22,640 nt of DNA, taken from the IMG/VR virus record IMGVR_UViG_3300035145_003716, positions 1 to 22,640 of that record; one strand, written 5' to 3'. Below are positions 3,346-9,314 of this stretch, piece by piece. The stretch comes from a virus. The position numbers were made by a program, and so were the translations under genes. The notes beneath the pieces are model-generated. The model did no database searches. It saw only the letters and a program-made list of their open reading frames with translations, and was not told where the DNA came from. Position 1 is the first letter of the stretch, and each line of letters begins with the position of its first letter.

Positions 3346-3615
3346 TTACATAAACATGTCATTTAAATCACTTAGTAACTTAACTAAGTCATTTTTATTT
3401 TTAGGAATTTTAAATCCTAAAGCTTTTAAATCTTTTACTGGCATTGTTTGTTTACCAGCATTACTTGAGGCACCAGTTATTTCATAACTGATACCTTTTA
3501 CTGTATCAAAGCTAGCAGTGATTTTATCACCATCAGCCTTTTTAGGTAGCTTTACAGTAACTGGACCAAATTTTGCTTCACCTAATTTTTGTCTCATTTC
3601 GACAAAGGTTAACAT
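3346..3615 (-). CDS. 68: Prohead core protein, gp68-like
   Basis: A small 89-residue protein located between gp67 and gp21, the place of the minor prohead core protein gp68 in T4 (141 residues). It is rich in Lys and has a short beta-like N-terminal half and a helical C-terminal end (KNKNDLVKLLSDLNDMF). The sequence KLGE/A near residue 10 fits the gp21 cleavage rule, consistent with a core component. Its ATG overlaps the stop of the upstream gp67 gene by one base (TAATG), so its translation is probably coupled to gp67. I see no direct similarity to T4 gp68; the name follows gene order as used for marine T4-like phages. Confidence 0.68.
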   Translation of the reverse strand: MLTFVEMRQKLGEAKFGPVTVKLPKKADGDKITASFDTVKGISYEITGASSNAGKQTMPVKDLKALGFKIPKNKNDLVKLLSDLNDMFM

Positions 3616-3782
3616 TATTCTTCCTCTTTTGTTGCTACTCTATCTTGCATAGTTGACGCCAATTCAATTTTTTTAGCGTCTAAAGCATCGGTAATTTTTT
3701 GGGCCATAAGATTATCAAAATCTTTTTGAGCCTTTACATTTTCACCATTTTTAACATTATTAATTAAATTTTCAATACTCAT
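3615..3782 (-). CDS. 67: Small prohead core protein, gp67-like (55 residues)
   Basis: A short gene that is easy to miss, filling the gap between portal gp20 and gp68. It starts with ATG at 3782 behind a CGAGGAAAG ribosome site and ends with TAA overlapping the next ATG. The product (MSIENLINNV to ATKEEE) is highly charged and looks entirely helical. It contains the pattern FD.LMAQKI..ALDAKKIELA typical, as I recall it, of the small core protein annotated gp67 in marine T4-like phages. T4 gp67 (80 residues) is an abundant prohead core component needed for correct head shape. It is the first gene after the late promoter at 3803-3810 and so heads the head-assembly unit gp67-68-21-22-23. Confidence 0.75.
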   Translation of the reverse strand: MSIENLINNVKNGENVKAQKDFDNLMAQKITDALDAKKIELASTMQDRVATKEEE

Positions 3783-3802
3783 TTTTTGCTTTCCTCGTTA
3801 TA

Positions 3803-3810
3803 TATTTATA
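3803..3810 (-). promoter_or_regulatory. T4-type late promoter box TATAAATA before gp67
   Basis: Exact late box on the minus strand in the gap between the gp20 stop (3816) and the gp67 start (3782), with 20 bases between box and ATG. It is the only exact box in front of the gp67-68-21-22-23 unit. Confidence 0.85.
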
Positions 3811-3815
3811 AAAAA

Positions 3816-5300
3816 TTATATGTCAAGATCATCTTCTGATTCAATTTCACCTGACTTTTTTTCCGCATCAATTTGATCTTTAATTTCTTTAATTTCATCA
3901 TCAGATTGTCTAAGAATATTCTTTCTAATCCATTCATGAGAAATATATTTACCTACATATTCATCCATAGTAGATAACATTTCGAAACGCTCTCTAGTAA
4001 TTTCACCTTCTTTTAATTCAGAGAAGTAATTATCTTCTAAATAATCAAAAGCAATATTTTCTTTTAATTCTTTCCAATCATCTTTGGTAATTACACCCTT
4101 CAACATTAATTGAGTTTTTAGTAACTGCATAAAAATGTCACTAAATCTATTTCTCAACCTATCAATAAACTTTTTAAATTTAACTTCGTCTCTTGATATT
4201 TCAGTAGCTCTACCTAAGTTAAACCCTGATTCTTGTTCTAATCTATTTACTGGAACGTTTAAACTTCTATATAATTTCTTTTGGAAGTAGATAATGTCTT
4301 CGATTTGTCCGAGGTTTTCCCCTCCTGGTAATGTTGAGATTTCTGTACCTCTACCACCTTCTCTACGCGGTAAAAAGAAATCTTCAAGCATGGACATATG
4401 TTTCTTATCATCTTTAATATCTCCAGTCTTAGCATCATATACTAATTTATTTCTATATTGATTCATAATATTTTTTAAATATTCTTCAGCCTTACCTTTT
4501 GGTAAGTTACCTACATCAATATAAAATATTCTACGTTCTGGTGCTCTTGATATTCTATAAATAACAAGTGCATCTTCCATCATTCTTAACTGGTTAGTAG
4601 GTTTAATAGCTTTATGCATATAAGAAAGAATTCTCTTTCTAGCAGGATCTAATACACCTGATGTACAATATGCAATTGCATCAGGGTGAATTTTTAAACC
4701 TTCGCCTGCACCATCTTTACCTTTACTAAATACAAAAAACTCTTCTTGTTTTTTGATTATAGTTGCACCAGTTTTTTCGTCTTTTTCTTCCTCAACCTCT
4801 TTTACTTTTCTAAGTTTAGTTGGGTCAATATATCTTAATTCTTGAATCCCTTTTTGTGGATTCGATTGATCAATAATAATGTGATATGGTAATCTACCGT
4901 CAATATACCATTTTCTGAAAATATCATGGGCATAACTATTAAATCCTAATAAACTAACAATATTTTCGAACTCTGTCTTTATTGCAGTTTTAATTTTAGG
5001 AGAAGCTCTTACCTCATCTAAAATAATTTCAATTGGTGCTGATTTAAAATCACCAACAATTGCTTCATTAATAATATCTTCAACAGCAGCATCACATTCT
5101 GGTTGTGTAGCAATATCACGATACTTAAGAATAAGATCAACTTCATTCTTTGCGCTATCACCGTCAATATCAATATACTGACCAAAGTGACCGCCCGTCG
5201 ATATTACACCAACGCCATCTTCATCTGTCTTTGGAACAAAAGAAGGTAAGTTTTGTTCACTCCCTTTTCTTTTAATTTCAAATCCGAAAAATTCTGCCAT
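3816..5300 (-). CDS. 20: Portal vertex protein gp20
   Basis: This is the dodecameric portal that starts prohead assembly, serves as the docking site for the terminase motor and later binds the neck. It is 494 residues, close to T4 gp20 (524). Recognisable family stretches include ATQPECDAAVEDIINEAIV (about 62-80), the wing region with W..DGRLPYH and ELRYIDP.K.RKV (about 130-165), the long stem/crown segment with RMMEDALVIYR.SRAPERR.FYIDVGNLPK (about 238-270), and LPGG.NLGQIEDI.YF..KLY..LNVP..RL (about 325-360). It stands alone between its own late promoter and the promoter of the next unit. Its leader contains a long hairpin (5313-5350). The ribosome site is GAGGAA about 8 bases before the ATG. 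gp20 and gp23 are the usual marker genes for T4-like phage diversity. Confidence 0.96.
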   Translation of the reverse strand: MAEFFGFEIKRKGSEQNLPSFVPKTDEDGVGVISTGGHFGQYIDIDGDSAKNEVDLILKYRDIATQPECDAAVEDIINEAIVGDFKSAPIEIILDEVRASPKIKTAIKTEFENIVSLLGFNSYAHDIFRKWYIDGRLPYHIIIDQSNPQKGIQELRYIDPTKLRKVKEVEEEKDEKTGATIIKKQEEFFVFSKGKDGAGEGLKIHPDAIAYCTSGVLDPARKRILSYMHKAIKPTNQLRMMEDALVIYRISRAPERRIFYIDVGNLPKGKAEEYLKNIMNQYRNKLVYDAKTGDIKDDKKHMSMLEDFFLPRREGGRGTEISTLPGGENLGQIEDIIYFQKKLYRSLNVPVNRLEQESGFNLGRATEISRDEVKFKKFIDRLRNRFSDIFMQLLKTQLMLKGVITKDDWKELKENIAFDYLEDNYFSELKEGEITRERFEMLSTMDEYVGKYISHEWIRKNILRQSDDEIKEIKDQIDAEKKSGEIESEDDLDI

Positions 5301-5312
5301 ATTTAATTCCTC

Positions 5313-5350
5313 AATATTATTGGAGGGGATAACTCCCCTCCTCTAATATT
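5313..5350 (-). promoter_or_regulatory. Two-part hairpin in the gp20 mRNA leader
   Basis: On the minus strand, an outer stem AATATTA/TAATATT and an inner stem GGAGGGG/CCCCTCC, 7 bp each, are joined by a two-by-two internal loop (GA opposite AA). The apical loop is AGTTAT. The structure begins immediately after the late box at 5350-5357 and ends about a dozen bases before the gp20 ATG. No T-run follows, so it does not look like a terminator. A 5'-end hairpin could protect the mRNA or tune translation; that role is inferred. Transcription from the adjacent box would start inside the outer stem, so only the inner stem would certainly form in that message. Confidence 0.75.
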
Positions 5351-5357
5351 ATTTATA
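5350..5357 (-). promoter_or_regulatory. T4-type late promoter box TATAAATA before gp20
   Basis: Exact late box on the minus strand between the gp19 stop (5363) and gp20. Its last base is also the first base of the leader hairpin. The leader to the gp20 ATG is about 40-45 bases if transcription starts about 6 bases past the box. Confidence 0.85.
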
Positions 5358-5362
5358 TACCT

Positions 5363-5890
5363 TTAAGAAGTGGTATTTGATTCCCAATATTGTACTTGCA
5401 TTTCAACTGTGAATTCTTCAATCTGATTTTCATTATCATATGAAAGTTCAATAGTTGATAAGTTAGTTGGGAACACGCCTCTAAGATCATATGTCTTAGT
5501 AACTTCACCAGCTTTATTCAGCTGTTCAATAAGCATATCAGCTTGATAATCTGTTGGATTACTTAAGCCGCTATTATTATTGTGCTCATTGATACCATTC
5601 ATCCATCTTTCAAAAGAGTTTCTTACTTCGAAACCTACATCATTAATTACTGTTAATGATACTGGCTCAAATGTTCTATCACCAGCTAATTGTAACTGTC
5701 TGCCCCTGAATAATACAGGTACAGGTGCTACAACTGATGAAGGAAACTGAGCTCCTTTAATCATGAATGAAGATAGTTCAACGTCACCTTGAGCATATGA
5801 AGGAAAATTACATGTTACTTTGAACATGTTGGAACGTGCGCCACCTCCTACGAGTTTTGATTTAAAATCATCTACGCCTAAAATTGCCAT
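5363..5890 (-). CDS. 19: Tail tube protein gp19
   Basis: This is the subunit of the inner tail tube through which DNA passes; hexameric rings stack on the baseplate hub inside the gp18 sheath. The protein has 175 residues (T4 gp19 has 163). Family features visible are the N-terminal FKSKL..GGARSNMF.V.CNFP (about 9-31), a LFRGR..QLAGDR.F.PVSLTVIND segment in the middle, a F..WMNGIN..NNNSG helix-loop (about 94-109), and a C-terminal strand LSYDNENQIEEFTVEMQVQYWE, all typical of contractile tube proteins. It follows gp18 after 12 bases with a GGAG ribosome site and shares the gp18 promoter, so sheath and tube are made from one message. Confidence 0.95.
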   Translation of the reverse strand: MAILGVDDFKSKLVGGGARSNMFKVTCNFPSYAQGDVELSSFMIKGAQFPSSVVAPVPVLFRGRQLQLAGDRTFEPVSLTVINDVGFEVRNSFERWMNGINEHNNNSGLSNPTDYQADMLIEQLNKAGEVTKTYDLRGVFPTNLSTIELSYDNENQIEEFTVEMQVQYWESNTTS

Positions 5891-5902
5891 TTTAATCTCC
5901 TA

Positions 5903-7636
5903 TTATACGCCAGCGATTTCAGTGAAATCGACTCCGGTTCTTGTTGCTATAAAGTTCAATGAAATGAAGTTAATAGATCTTGATGGCTTGATAAAGATAT
6001 CAGCTACAAATCTATTAGCGTCAATTACCTGACCTGTGTTATTTGTTTCATCACAAACAACTTTAAAGTCAGTTACACCTCTTCTACCTTTTACGTCTCT
6101 TAAGAATGGTTCTAAAAGATTTCTGAATTGAGCTCTTGTAAATTCATCATTGAATTCAAAGAGTTGACCTTTAGCAGCTGTGCTAATTGCCTTCTCAATA
6201 ACAATAAATAATCTTCTAACATTAATTCTATCGAACGCACTTGGTTTGGCTAACAAAGTTTTGTCTCCAAATAACATAGTACCTTGTCCTGGGAAAGATA
6301 CTAATGGATTGATTCTTGCTTTATATAAAGAATCTCTATCAGCTTTCTTTGGATTTAGTGCTAACTTTGTTACACCTAGAAGTTGTCCTCTTGTTACACC
6401 TGCTGGGCTAAACCATGCATCTGCAACGTTATCTGTATTTGCACAAAGACCTGCTACAATACCTGATGCTCCAATCCATCTATATACGTCATTATACTTG
6501 TCGTATACATAGACAGCTGAAGAATCCATTGAAGCATATGAGCTTGATGGAATTGCTGTTGCGTTTCCACTTGCTTCTGTTCCATTTGCCCATGAAATAA
6601 CCTGTGCAACACTTCCGCCTGCAGCTGAATCTTCAACTGGTGCTGAAATGAATGCCATGCAATCTTTTCTTGCTTCTGCTATAGAAATAAGATGTCTTGC
6701 AATATCGCTTTCTCCATTTGCATCTGCTGCGGCAAACAATAAATTTACATCTACTGTTTCTGCATCCGCTAGTAAGTCAAATGATGATGTAATATCACCA
6801 TGTGCAGGAGCGTTATCACTTACACCGCCAGCTAATACAGCTGATACGATTGTATCAGAATCTGCAAAAGCTCTGCTAGCTACAAAGTTTGAACCTGCTG
6901 CTGAAGTTACTGGATCTGAACCAGCATCAAATGCTGAGTTATGACCACTCCACCATACATACTCGGATTGATTATTAATTACATCTTTATAGTAATTAGT
7001 TGTGCCATCTGATTTTTTACCTTGTGGTGATAAAGATAAGAATTGGAATACTTCTAGAACTGTTCCTTTAGTTCCACTCCATAATCCATCTTCATCAATC
7101 ACTGCTACGTGGATTTCATCATTTGTTGCACCTACAGCTGCTGCGCTTTCAGAAGTTCCTGGTGCTGCGTCAAAGCTGTCTTTAGGATCAGGTAAACTAC
7201 CTAGTCCTGTCCATGCTGCAAAAGATGTTGAATTTGAGCAAATATCTACTCTTAAGCTATCGCCTAAAGCGCCTGGATATTTAGCTACAAATGTTCCACT
7301 CAGTGAGCTAAGGGAATCATAATGGTCTTCGTTTTTAATTAAAAGTGCTGTGCCGTCTGTTGCATTTTTCATGTCAGACTTTTCAGCACGTACTACCTTA
7401 AGTGCGTTTCCATACTTTAAGAATGAAGCAGCAGTTAAGAAGTGTTTCGCCGTAACTGAGTCTGGAGCTCCAAAGATACTAGCTAATTCGTTTTCTGAAC
7501 TAACCGTAGTAACTTCTTCGACCGGACCCCAATTAAATGCACCTACGAATCCACCAATACTGGTAGAAACTGCAGGTACCACGTTCGTTGCGTCAATTTC
7601 TTTGACTTGAACGCCTGGTGATACTTGAAATGCCAT
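5903..7636 (-). CDS. 18: Contractile tail sheath protein gp18
   Basis: This sheath subunit wraps the gp19 tube and contracts on infection. It has 577 residues; T4 gp18 has 659, so the outer, variable domains are smaller here. The N-terminus SPGVQVKEID and the block SPAGVTRGQL (about 410-419) are characteristic. The C-terminal domain that carries the inter-subunit contacts is well preserved: RNLLEPFLRDVKGRRGVTDF..VCDE.NN (about 502-534) followed by VADIFIKPSRSINFI and a final strand. The central part (about 115-400) is rich in Ala, Ser, Gly and Asp and is the part expected on the virion surface. The ribosome site is GAGAGGA. It is the first gene of a two-gene unit behind the palindromic late promoter. 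Confidence 0.96.
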   Translation of the reverse strand: MAFQVSPGVQVKEIDATNVVPAVSTSIGGFVGAFNWGPVEEVTTVSSENELASIFGAPDSVTAKHFLTAASFLKYGNALKVVRAEKSDMKNATDGTALLIKNEDHYDSLSSLSGTFVAKYPGALGDSLRVDICSNSTSFAAWTGLGSLPDPKDSFDAAPGTSESAAAVGATNDEIHVAVIDEDGLWSGTKGTVLEVFQFLSLSPQGKKSDGTTNYYKDVINNQSEYVWWSGHNSAFDAGSDPVTSAAGSNFVASRAFADSDTIVSAVLAGGVSDNAPAHGDITSSFDLLADAETVDVNLLFAAADANGESDIARHLISIAEARKDCMAFISAPVEDSAAGGSVAQVISWANGTEASGNATAIPSSSYASMDSSAVYVYDKYNDVYRWIGASGIVAGLCANTDNVADAWFSPAGVTRGQLLGVTKLALNPKKADRDSLYKARINPLVSFPGQGTMLFGDKTLLAKPSAFDRINVRRLFIVIEKAISTAAKGQLFEFNDEFTRAQFRNLLEPFLRDVKGRRGVTDFKVVCDETNNTGQVIDANRFVADIFIKPSRSINFISLNFIATRTGVDFTEIAGV

Positions 7637-7698
7637 TTTTTCGTCCTCTCAATTTGAGTTAGTTAATATGTTTTCATAATACGGTTATATTCAATAGT

Positions 7699-7716
7699 AT
7701 TATTTATATAAATAAT
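7699..7716. repeat. Perfect 18-bp palindrome containing two opposed late boxes
   Basis: ATTATTTATATAAATAAT is identical on both strands. It holds TATAAATA on the minus strand (7701-7708) and TATAAATA on the plus strand (7707-7714), overlapping by two bases. It lies between the gp17 stop and the gp18 start. Confidence 0.8.
7701..7708 (-). promoter_or_regulatory. T4-type late promoter box TATAAATA before gp18
   Basis: Exact late box on the minus strand in the 85-base gap between gp17 and gp18, leaving a leader of roughly 60 bases. It lies within a perfect palindrome, so the same box also faces the 3' end of gp17 on the other strand. Confidence 0.85.
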
Positions 7717-7721
7717 AATTT

Positions 7722-9314
7722 CTAGAGATGATCTACCTCGAACCATACATTACCTTCACCGTCACCAACTCCCTCTTTTCTATTTCTACCATCTTCTATA
7801 ATACCAAATGGTAACATATCGTCTTGAATTGCCTTTAACTGTTCCTTATACATTAATTGTTTCATATCAATATTAGTCAATCCTGCAAATATATCAGTTG
7901 TAGTAAACCAACCAAATAATACTAAATTCATAACTAAGTCATCATGATTAGGTGCAACTGCCTCAAATGAAGCGCCTCTAGCAACAAATGTACACATTTC
8001 TGTAATAGTTTCAGCATCAACAATATGTAATTTCTTTGAAGCAATTAAATCTTTAAATGTAGAACAACCAATTCTTTTAACCCGTTTAGTCATAGTAGCA
8101 CCAATCGCATTAGCTTTAATTTGTGATTCTACAAACATATTTTCATATTCTAAATCGTAATATAATCCATTACAAACTATTGCTCCTTGATCATTACTTT
8201 CAACAATTGTATATGCGTCATTATACATTCTAGCATATTTGTATATAATATCAGGAAATAATAATGGTGATATGTTATTATCTCTAAATACACACACCTG
8301 TTTGAATGGATTTACAGATGTATCAATAATATTAAATGTACTATAATCTTGTCCACGGCCCTTAGATACATCGACTGTCATAACATAGTGATGTCCTTCT
8401 TTTGGGTCCTCATATTGAAATAAATTTTCTGACCATCGTATTGGATCAATGGCCTTTTGTGCTAATAAATCATTTGCCTCAATTAATGTATTACCTCTAC
8501 CATGGAAATTATTACCAAATTCTTGGTCGAACTGCAGCTCTGATGTATTGGCAATTGTTTCTTCTTTCCATTTTTCATCACGCCCTGGGACGTCCCACCA
8601 ATCTACTCTAAATGGTTTAAATTCATTTGTATTTGTTGTGGCACCTTCCCATAATTTGTGGTATATATTACCAACACCATTTGCTGTAGAAGCAATAATA
8701 ATTTTTGTATCTTTACCAGATGAAACAACCGGATATGTTGATGTGTAAAACTGAGCATCATTATCGATAAATGCAAACTCATCAAGAAATAATAAATTAA
8801 TTGATAAACCCCTGATAGAACTACCTGAGGTAGCTGCAGCAATAATTTTTGAGTTATTACTAAATTCTATAGAACCTTTATTTAATGCTTTACAACCTGG
8901 CTGCAAAAAGAATGGTAAGTTTTCTAATGCTAGTGTAATTCTACCTAGCATTTCTCTAGCCACTGCACCTTTGTTAGCTAGAATTGCAATAGTTTTTTCT
9001 GGATGGAAACATGCATACCATAATAAAAATACAACTGATGATATTGATTTACCACTTTGTCGACATGCTAAAACAATATTAAATCTGTTTTCATTGAAGT
9101 GATGAAACATTTCTTCTTGATATGGCCATAAATCAAATGGAACTAAACCTTTATCAAGTGAAATAACTTTTACATACGTACGAGCAAAGTATGCAGGGTC
9201 ATTCATACATTTTTTGTATTCAATTACCTGTTCTTTTGTAAATTCGCTTTCTACTCCATCCCTTTTTACATTAGGATTTCCTAGATAGCCATGCTCATTT
9301 ATTGCCTTCGTCAT
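7722..9314 (-). CDS. 17: Terminase large subunit gp17 (packaging ATPase and nuclease)
   Basis: This is the motor that drives DNA into the prohead through the portal and cuts the concatemer. It has 530 residues (T4 gp17 has 610). The ATPase half shows Walker A CRQSGKS (84-90), Walker B LLFLDE with Asp178 and the catalytic Glu179, and coupling motif ASTANG (208-213). The nuclease half has the RNase H-like acidic set: Asp315 in VDVSKGRGQDYS, Glu372 in VESNDQG, and Asp458/Asp459 in NHDDLVM, corresponding to T4 Asp401, Glu458 and Asp542. All key residues are present, so the enzyme looks intact. The start overlaps the end of gp16 by 20 bases, with AAGGA upstream. It is the last gene of the neck-terminase unit. 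Confidence 0.97.
   Translation of the reverse strand: MTKAINEHGYLGNPNVKRDGVESEFTKEQVIEYKKCMNDPAYFARTYVKVISLDKGLVPFDLWPYQEEMFHHFNENRFNIVLACRQSGKSISSVVFLLWYACFHPEKTIAILANKGAVAREMLGRITLALENLPFFLQPGCKALNKGSIEFSNNSKIIAAATSGSSIRGLSINLLFLDEFAFIDNDAQFYTSTYPVVSSGKDTKIIIASTANGVGNIYHKLWEGATTNTNEFKPFRVDWWDVPGRDEKWKEETIANTSELQFDQEFGNNFHGRGNTLIEANDLLAQKAIDPIRWSENLFQYEDPKEGHHYVMTVDVSKGRGQDYSTFNIIDTSVNPFKQVCVFRDNNISPLLFPDIIYKYARMYNDAYTIVESNDQGAIVCNGLYYDLEYENMFVESQIKANAIGATMTKRVKRIGCSTFKDLIASKKLHIVDAETITEMCTFVARGASFEAVAPNHDDLVMNLVLFGWFTTTDIFAGLTNIDMKQLMYKEQLKAIQDDMLPFGIIEDGRNRKEGVGDGEGNVWFEVDHL

Follow-up and report, generated by a model that had tools for sequence, protein, structure and literature searches.

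A G+C-rich hairpin was identified on the minus strand in the 62 bases that separate the tail tube gene gp19 from the portal gene gp20, and it recurs at this gene boundary in every unique junction sampled from one marine clade of phages (57/57) and in 69 of the 71 sampled from another. The window, by which we mean the whole stretch of DNA analysed, is a 22.6-kb virus record (22,640 nucleotides) with the late genes of a T4-like phage on its minus strand. We tentatively interpret the hairpin as a barrier to RNA decay placed where the tail message (gp18-gp19) gives way to the portal/head message (gp20 onward), with a second role as 5′ stem of the portal mRNA, a reading that we hold with a little less than even confidence.

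Tail sheath and tube are needed at more than ten times the subunit number of the portal, and the genes are adjacent. To our knowledge, the setting of such ratios at the RNA level has been little studied in T4-like phages, and the recurrence of the hairpin in the two clades offers a definite object for such tests. The literature searched contained no mention of a gp19/gp20 hairpin, and Rfam has no model for it. A search of the window with Rfam 15 gave 0 matches at the gathering score, and 17 matches to 5250-5420 were all below that score. The 19/20 junction is not among the conserved terminators in the part of PMC1524935 available to us.

Sequence and setting of the hairpin

On the minus strand, the portal late box is followed by ATATT (5349-5345), the A at which transcription is predicted to start, the paired arms with their loops, the Shine-Dalgarno sequence and the gp20 ATG, from 5300 (Table 1). 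An initial annotation had described a perfect 7-bp G-C-rich stem within a second, outer 7-bp stem, separated from it by a GA/AA internal loop, with a late box adjoining and no T-run following. All of these features are present in the sequence. The inner stem gains one A-T pair, making 8 bp, and the outer stem (7 bp, AATATTA/TAATATT) shares a single base, 5350, with the late box. Within the clade, GA often stands on one side of the internal loop, facing GA or AA, and the GA/GA type is frequent; the loop possibly forms tandem sheared G-A pairs.

Table 1. Features of the gp18-gp20 region of the window
Feature	Position	Strand	Basis or remark
Late box upstream of gp18	7701-7708		
gp18 tail sheath	5903..7636	-	PHROG tail sheath, E 6.9e-132; first gene of presumed readthrough RNA
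gp19 tail tube, gene upstream of hairpin	5363..5890	-	PHROG tail tube, E 4.8e-60
Late promoter box TATAAATA of gp20	5350..5357	-	exact match
Outer A+T stem, 5′ arm AATATTA	5344..5350	-	predicted -6 to +1
Predicted transcription start (+1)	5344	-	T4 rule, box at -13 to -6
Internal loop, GA side (5′)	5342-5343	-	read from sequence
Inner stem, 5′ arm GGAGGGGA	5334..5341	-	sequence, fold, clade conservation
Loop GTTA	5330..5333	-	loop sequence and length vary within clade
Inner stem, 3′ arm TCCCCTCC	5322..5329	-	sequence, fold
Internal loop, AA side (3′)	5320-5321	-	read from sequence
Outer A+T stem, 3′ arm TAATATT	5313..5319	-	pairs with AATATTA
Shine-Dalgarno GAGG of gp20	5309..5312	-	sequence; accessibility computed
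gp20 portal	3816..5300	-	PHROG portal protein, E 3.3e-207

The RNA fold of 5295-5370 had an energy of -22.9 kcal/mol (z -3.04), and 0 of 200 shuffles were as good. The hairpin is the sole stem in the window that combines 7 bp or more with 6 or more G-C pairs and a loop of 3-8 bases; dinucleotide shuffles of the window contained on average 0.05 such stems (2 of 40 shuffles had one). Lowering the threshold to 5 G-C pairs added one more hairpin, an ordinary terminator at 139-162. When 7 bp or more and 5 G-C pairs were required, genome G003 (88.8 kb) had 2 stems and the initial 100 kb of genome G001, a stretch without the portal junction, had 3; phage C48C1 had 20, of which 11 lay outside long frames and several had T-rich tails, and only the portal one sits just after a late box.

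The late genes on the minus strand are gp18 (sheath), gp19 (tube), gp20 (portal), a small prohead protein gene, gp21 (protease), gp22 (scaffold) and gp23 (capsid). The initial annotation had argued from the 12 portal copies per virion. The portal late promoter also stands before the small prohead gene, gp21, gp22 and gp23, and a further late box lies at 3803-3810; portal copy number is thus not the sole consideration. A scan of the window for stems found no hairpin after its other late boxes. Upstream of gp18, the late boxes of both strands overlap in a palindrome (7701-7714).

Conservation in two marine clades

The window's clade was represented by the best 80 relatives listed, with 74-82% portal identity, and the sister clade, around phage C48C1, by the best 80 loci listed (L093-L172); all counts refer to these samples. 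One locus with no upstream DNA (L060), two of the 160 loci without a start, three unparsed loci (L090-L092), duplicates and non-adjacent junctions were left out. ATAAATA was found in all 80 window-clade leaders (79 relatives with upstream DNA, plus the window), the full TATAAATA in 79, and in all 80 a strong hairpin of -8 kcal/mol or lower followed it. The objection foreseen in the initial annotation, that close relatives might lack the hairpin or compensatory changes, does not hold: all 57 unique junctions sampled have it directly after the portal late box, and among 51 unique elements the stem letters change on both arms (GAGGGGAG, GGAGGGA, CAGGGAC, GGGGAGA, GGGGGAAA and others), with loops of 3-9 bases.

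Since the stems were picked by a best-stem search, shuffle and flank controls were needed. The best 40-nt fold of the 57 window-clade junctions averaged -18.2 kcal/mol, against -7.4 for dinucleotide shuffles (2 of 570 as good). Control windows after the gp20 stop averaged -1.5 kcal/mol, with 0 of 57 at -10 or lower. Those inside gp19 averaged -8.8, and 15 of 55 reached -10 or below.

Of the 71 unique junctions from the sister clade, 69 have the hairpin downstream of the box and the other two have no recognised box; the stem letters are unrelated to those of the window's clade. The best fold averaged -19.0 kcal/mol against -7.9 for shuffles (2 of 710 as good); control windows inside gp19 averaged -10.6, and 38 of 68 were at -10 or lower. 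This occasional good folding of gp19 coding sequence, seen in both clades, counts against the proposed decay barrier. Tetraloops were of the UNCG or GNRA type in 28 of 43 cases, where about 4.5% is expected from base composition, although kinship of the sequences inflates the count. Their use indicates that selection acts on RNA.

An element acting as DNA at the late start, either an operator for a dimeric protein or a cruciform as raised in the initial annotation, would fit the position of the inverted repeat across the predicted start. Neither the letters of the stem nor the length of the loop is constant, however, and the sister-clade loops are tetraloops of RNA type, and we consider such an element extremely improbable.

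Column-wise tests gave a mixed picture. The stem register moves by 1-2 bases between subgroups, and the second of two alignments takes in 7 antisense matches. RNAalifold on a MAFFT alignment returned 4 consensus pairs only (-3.91 kcal/mol); in the two alignments 81.1% and 83.2% of cells were paired, against 79.4% and 81.6% in shuffles. The covariation score was equalled by 0 and 1 of 500 shuffles, yet a +3 slide scored higher still. In place of these counts we parsed each sequence separately and used shuffles and swap tests. A search with model R1 found a single strong match in each of six window-clade records and none in C48C1 or Mosig. Its matches in HTVC008M were weak (best E 0.017), and the best of them reads as a terminator before a late box.

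Stems in readthrough and late RNA

T4 late promoters have their box at -13 to -6 (PMC1524935). Applied to TATAAATA, this rule puts the start at 5344, so that six of the seven bases in the 5′ arm of the outer stem would not be transcribed from the portal late promoter. The portal mRNA would then begin with AGA and hold the inner 8-bp stem only, from +4, and the outer A+T stem would form only in RNA reading through from gp18-gp19. This argument needs a start at the T4 position and falls if the start lies further upstream. The initial annotation had assigned the hairpin to the 5′ leader of the portal message; this agrees with the predicted late transcript as far as the inner stem is concerned, whereas the outer stem would be absent from late mRNA under the T4 rule.

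Pairing between promoter and leader was assessed by permuting the segments from the box to -1 among leaders differing at more than 8 positions. In the sister clade (64 leaders, 59 segments), a leader's own segment gained -5.63 kcal/mol against -2.92 for permuted ones, and 0 of 100 permutations were as low. In the window's clade (26 leaders, 11 segments) the values were -3.56 and -2.72, with 1 of 100 permutations as good by energy and 12 of 100 by number of pairs. Larger leader sets agreed with these results. Two swaps of 3′ flanks relative to the inner stem detected no co-variation in the window's clade: one gave 6.29 versus 6.27 pairs, and the second -4.91 versus -4.72 kcal/mol, the own flank being better in 19 of 51. 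Own 3′ flanks did beat shuffled flanks in 47 of 51 elements. These comparisons suggest that the structure extends into promoter DNA; the signal is clear in the sister clade and only marginal in the window's. Co-variation of bases that late RNA would lack points, in the sister clade, to readthrough RNA.

A possible decay barrier between two messages

In RNA reading through from the gp18 promoter the whole structure would form, with the portal promoter sequence as part of its outer 5′ arm. It would stop 3′-to-5′ exonucleases and shield the gp18-gp19 segment, and we propose that this protection would let the many-copy tail proteins and the few-copy portal be made in different amounts. RNA from the late promoter would lack the outer stem, and its inner 8-bp stem, near the 5′ end, may hinder 5′-end-dependent decay. 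We infer the readthrough, as well as every effect on RNA stability or protein amount, from the arrangement of the region.

A precedent exists in E. coli, where a stable upstream segment ended at a hairpin without a U-tract in 26 of 34 operons (PMC5927463, which cites mal and puf as cases). As in these 'differential decay' operons (malEFG, puf), the portal hairpin is stable, has no U-tract and stands between segments needed in different amounts. The E. coli hairpins, however, mostly sit inside the downstream coding sequence (PMC5927463), whereas the one described here is outside it, with a predicted late promoter separating its stem from the stop codon of the upstream gene. The constancy of the hairpin at the gene boundary in both clades, its folding far below shuffles, the UNCG and GNRA loops, the single strong R1 match in each of six records and the fit of untranscribed segments to their own partners all favour a decay barrier. 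Against it stands the weakness of the outer stem in the window's clade, both by number of pairs and in the two flank swaps.

The main rival is a purely 5′-end role, because in this clade the distance from the late box to the stem (median 9, sd 1.5) varies less than that from the gp19 stop (sd 3.3), a spacing that counts against the barrier. The hairpin would then be a 5′-terminal stem-loop serving the portal late mRNA only, slowing its 5′-end-dependent decay, with no role in readthrough. Such stem-loops slow this kind of decay in E. coli mRNAs, and in the ompA and papA type the stem is likewise only a few bases away from the 5′ end, which is a predicted one here. From the start given by the T4 rule, late-RNA folds leave few 5′ bases unpaired (2-4 in 49 of the 55 leaders of the window's clade, none in 41 of the 69 leaders of the sister clade); the Shine-Dalgarno sequence stays open clade-wide; and stabilising 5′ mRNA structures are on record (PMC3997798). 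The same source reports that two unpaired 5′ bases suffice for B. subtilis RppH, with at least three preferred, so the 2-4 free bases of most window-clade members, a departure from the ompA/papA type, would protect poorly. A second departure is that in readthrough RNA the structure would reach upstream of the start. The co-variation of untranscribed bases in the sister clade, the lack of hairpins at the window's other late boxes and the position of the hairpin upstream of the box in T4 and most sampled Straboviridae also speak against a role confined to the late 5′ end, which we regard as somewhat unlikely.

Termination and access to the Shine-Dalgarno sequence

A scan of 3500-8500 found no intrinsic terminator, and the stem is not followed directly by a U-tract. 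A T-rich tail (5 or more T among the 8 bases that follow) was present on only 1 of 42 unique window-clade stems, and an intrinsic terminator was rejected for this clade. For contrast, the window has a textbook one on the minus strand after gp23, at 139-162, where AAAGGGAGAC-TTCG-GTCTCCCTTT is followed by T's and, at 109-116, by a late box; T4 and five relatives are also reported to have a terminator after gene 23 (PMC1524935). Both are G+C-rich hairpins near a late box in an A+T-rich genome, but the portal hairpin is without a U-tract and has its late box before the stem instead of after it. The view of the portal hairpin as a remnant or modified form of an intrinsic terminator or attenuator, ending tail transcription before gp20, gains something from the 18 of 73 unique sister-clade stems with T-rich tails, some of which may terminate transcription, and from the terminator-like hairpins before late boxes in some HTVC008M-like and Straboviridae junctions. 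The sister-clade tails also weigh against the decay barrier. Given the window-clade count and the contrast with 139-162, we consider a terminator origin very unlikely.

The Shine-Dalgarno sequence was predicted to be unpaired at 0.65 in readthrough RNA and 0.72 in late RNA (56 unique window-clade leaders), and it was closed in readthrough RNA only in 2 of the 56, with the reverse in 1. It is thus about as open in readthrough as in late RNA, which gives no support to the option, raised in the initial annotation beside stabilisation of the mRNA, that the hairpin limits portal. In T4 genes e, soc, 49 and I-TevI, hairpins form only in RNA from upstream promoters (PMC3014915). As predicted for the outer stem of the window, the e, soc and I-TevI leaders have the late promoter in the 5′ arm, so that readthrough and late RNA fold differently; their hairpins sequester the ribosome-binding site (PMC3014915), and that of the window's clade does not. 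A switch of the gene e type was therefore rejected.

Translational control in a broader sense, with the hairpin lowering portal translation from readthrough RNA or aiding ribosomes on late RNA, could draw on this T4 precedent, on the lower openness of the -20 to +6 region in readthrough (0.49) than in late RNA (0.61) in the window's clade, and on HTVC008M-like leaders that close in readthrough RNA only. Nevertheless, the Shine-Dalgarno sequence is not sequestered in the clade and the portal start of one relative (L107) has lost its adjoining hairpin, and we consider translational control quite unlikely.

Shuffling the upstream sequence (10 mononucleotide shuffles each) lowered the clade value for the Shine-Dalgarno sequence from 0.65 to 0.53, as might be expected if the hairpin merely insulated it from pairing with upstream sequence. 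The window's own Shine-Dalgarno was, however, predicted to be closed (0.05 in readthrough and 0.06 in late RNA), below the 0.37 obtained with shuffled upstream sequence, and the stability of the hairpin exceeds the need; we give almost no weight to insulation. In our opinion, the window's Shine-Dalgarno probably pairs with the first portal codons.

The same junction in wider relatives

Relatives fill the junction in different ways: with a hairpin before the promoter, a promoter inside a hairpin, a hairpin after the promoter, or none. In the loci sampled, which again were the best of those listed, the hairpin of 16 unique Straboviridae junctions was upstream of the late box in 10 (T4 included), around it in 3 and downstream in 2, with no box in 1. 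HTVC008M-like phages (75 unique junctions) had it upstream in 14 and the box in the loop in 7, with no strong hairpin in 52 and no box in 2. In syn9-like cyanophages (51 unique junctions), the box was in the loop in 10 and a strong hairpin was absent from 41. Absence from most junctions of the last two groups indicates that the function is not general and counts against the decay barrier. The Straboviridae arrangement, with a hairpin at the same boundary but before the box, supports the barrier and limits the initial view of a portal-leader element, which describes the two marine clades, with the hairpin downstream of the box, but not most Straboviridae.

In T4 (L253, 6130-6147), ATGGGGA-GAAA-TCCCCAT begins five bases after the gp19 stop. 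It shares with the window's hairpin the gene boundary and a G-rich stem, here with a GAAA loop, but it lies upstream of the late box and outside the late leader; the likeness is one of place and form. Where a gene has been inserted between gp19 and gp20, the hairpin stays on the gp19 side, which also favours the decay barrier. In L107, a NUMOD3-containing (homing-endonuclease-like) gene at 1556-1984 stands between the gp19 hairpin and gp20. In L260, a 192-aa frame without a Pfam match (889-1467) occupies this place, and its opening codons contain the hairpin, at a distance of about 60 bases from gp19. The common feature, as far as these sequences indicate, is the gp19/gp20 boundary and not the portal leader.

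Taken at its widest, the gp19/gp20 junction of many T4-superfamily phages would carry a transcript-boundary RNA hairpin that helps to set tail-to-portal ratios at the RNA level. In both marine clades it would span the portal late start, one stretch of DNA serving as promoter, as 3′ guard of the tail message and as 5′ guard of the portal message through two folds, with the ribosome-binding site not hidden. We think it unlikely that this joint proposal holds in full.

Among HTVC008M-like leaders, 14 of 72 were predicted to be closed in readthrough RNA only, with the reverse in 0. In one of this group (L195), CCTACTAAATA...AGTAGGAG, upstream of the portal start equivalent to 2451, places the late box inside an inverted repeat that covers the Shine-Dalgarno sequence. 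By these predictions, HTVC008M-like portal leaders look like the T4 gene e switch on the portal gene. Two further loci (L258 and L259) had a longer gap between gp19 and gp20 with a similar hairpin. In three others (L291, L305 and L327) gp19 lay 726-750 bases before gp20, and the gap of L291 contained a second gp19-like frame and a terminator-like hairpin.
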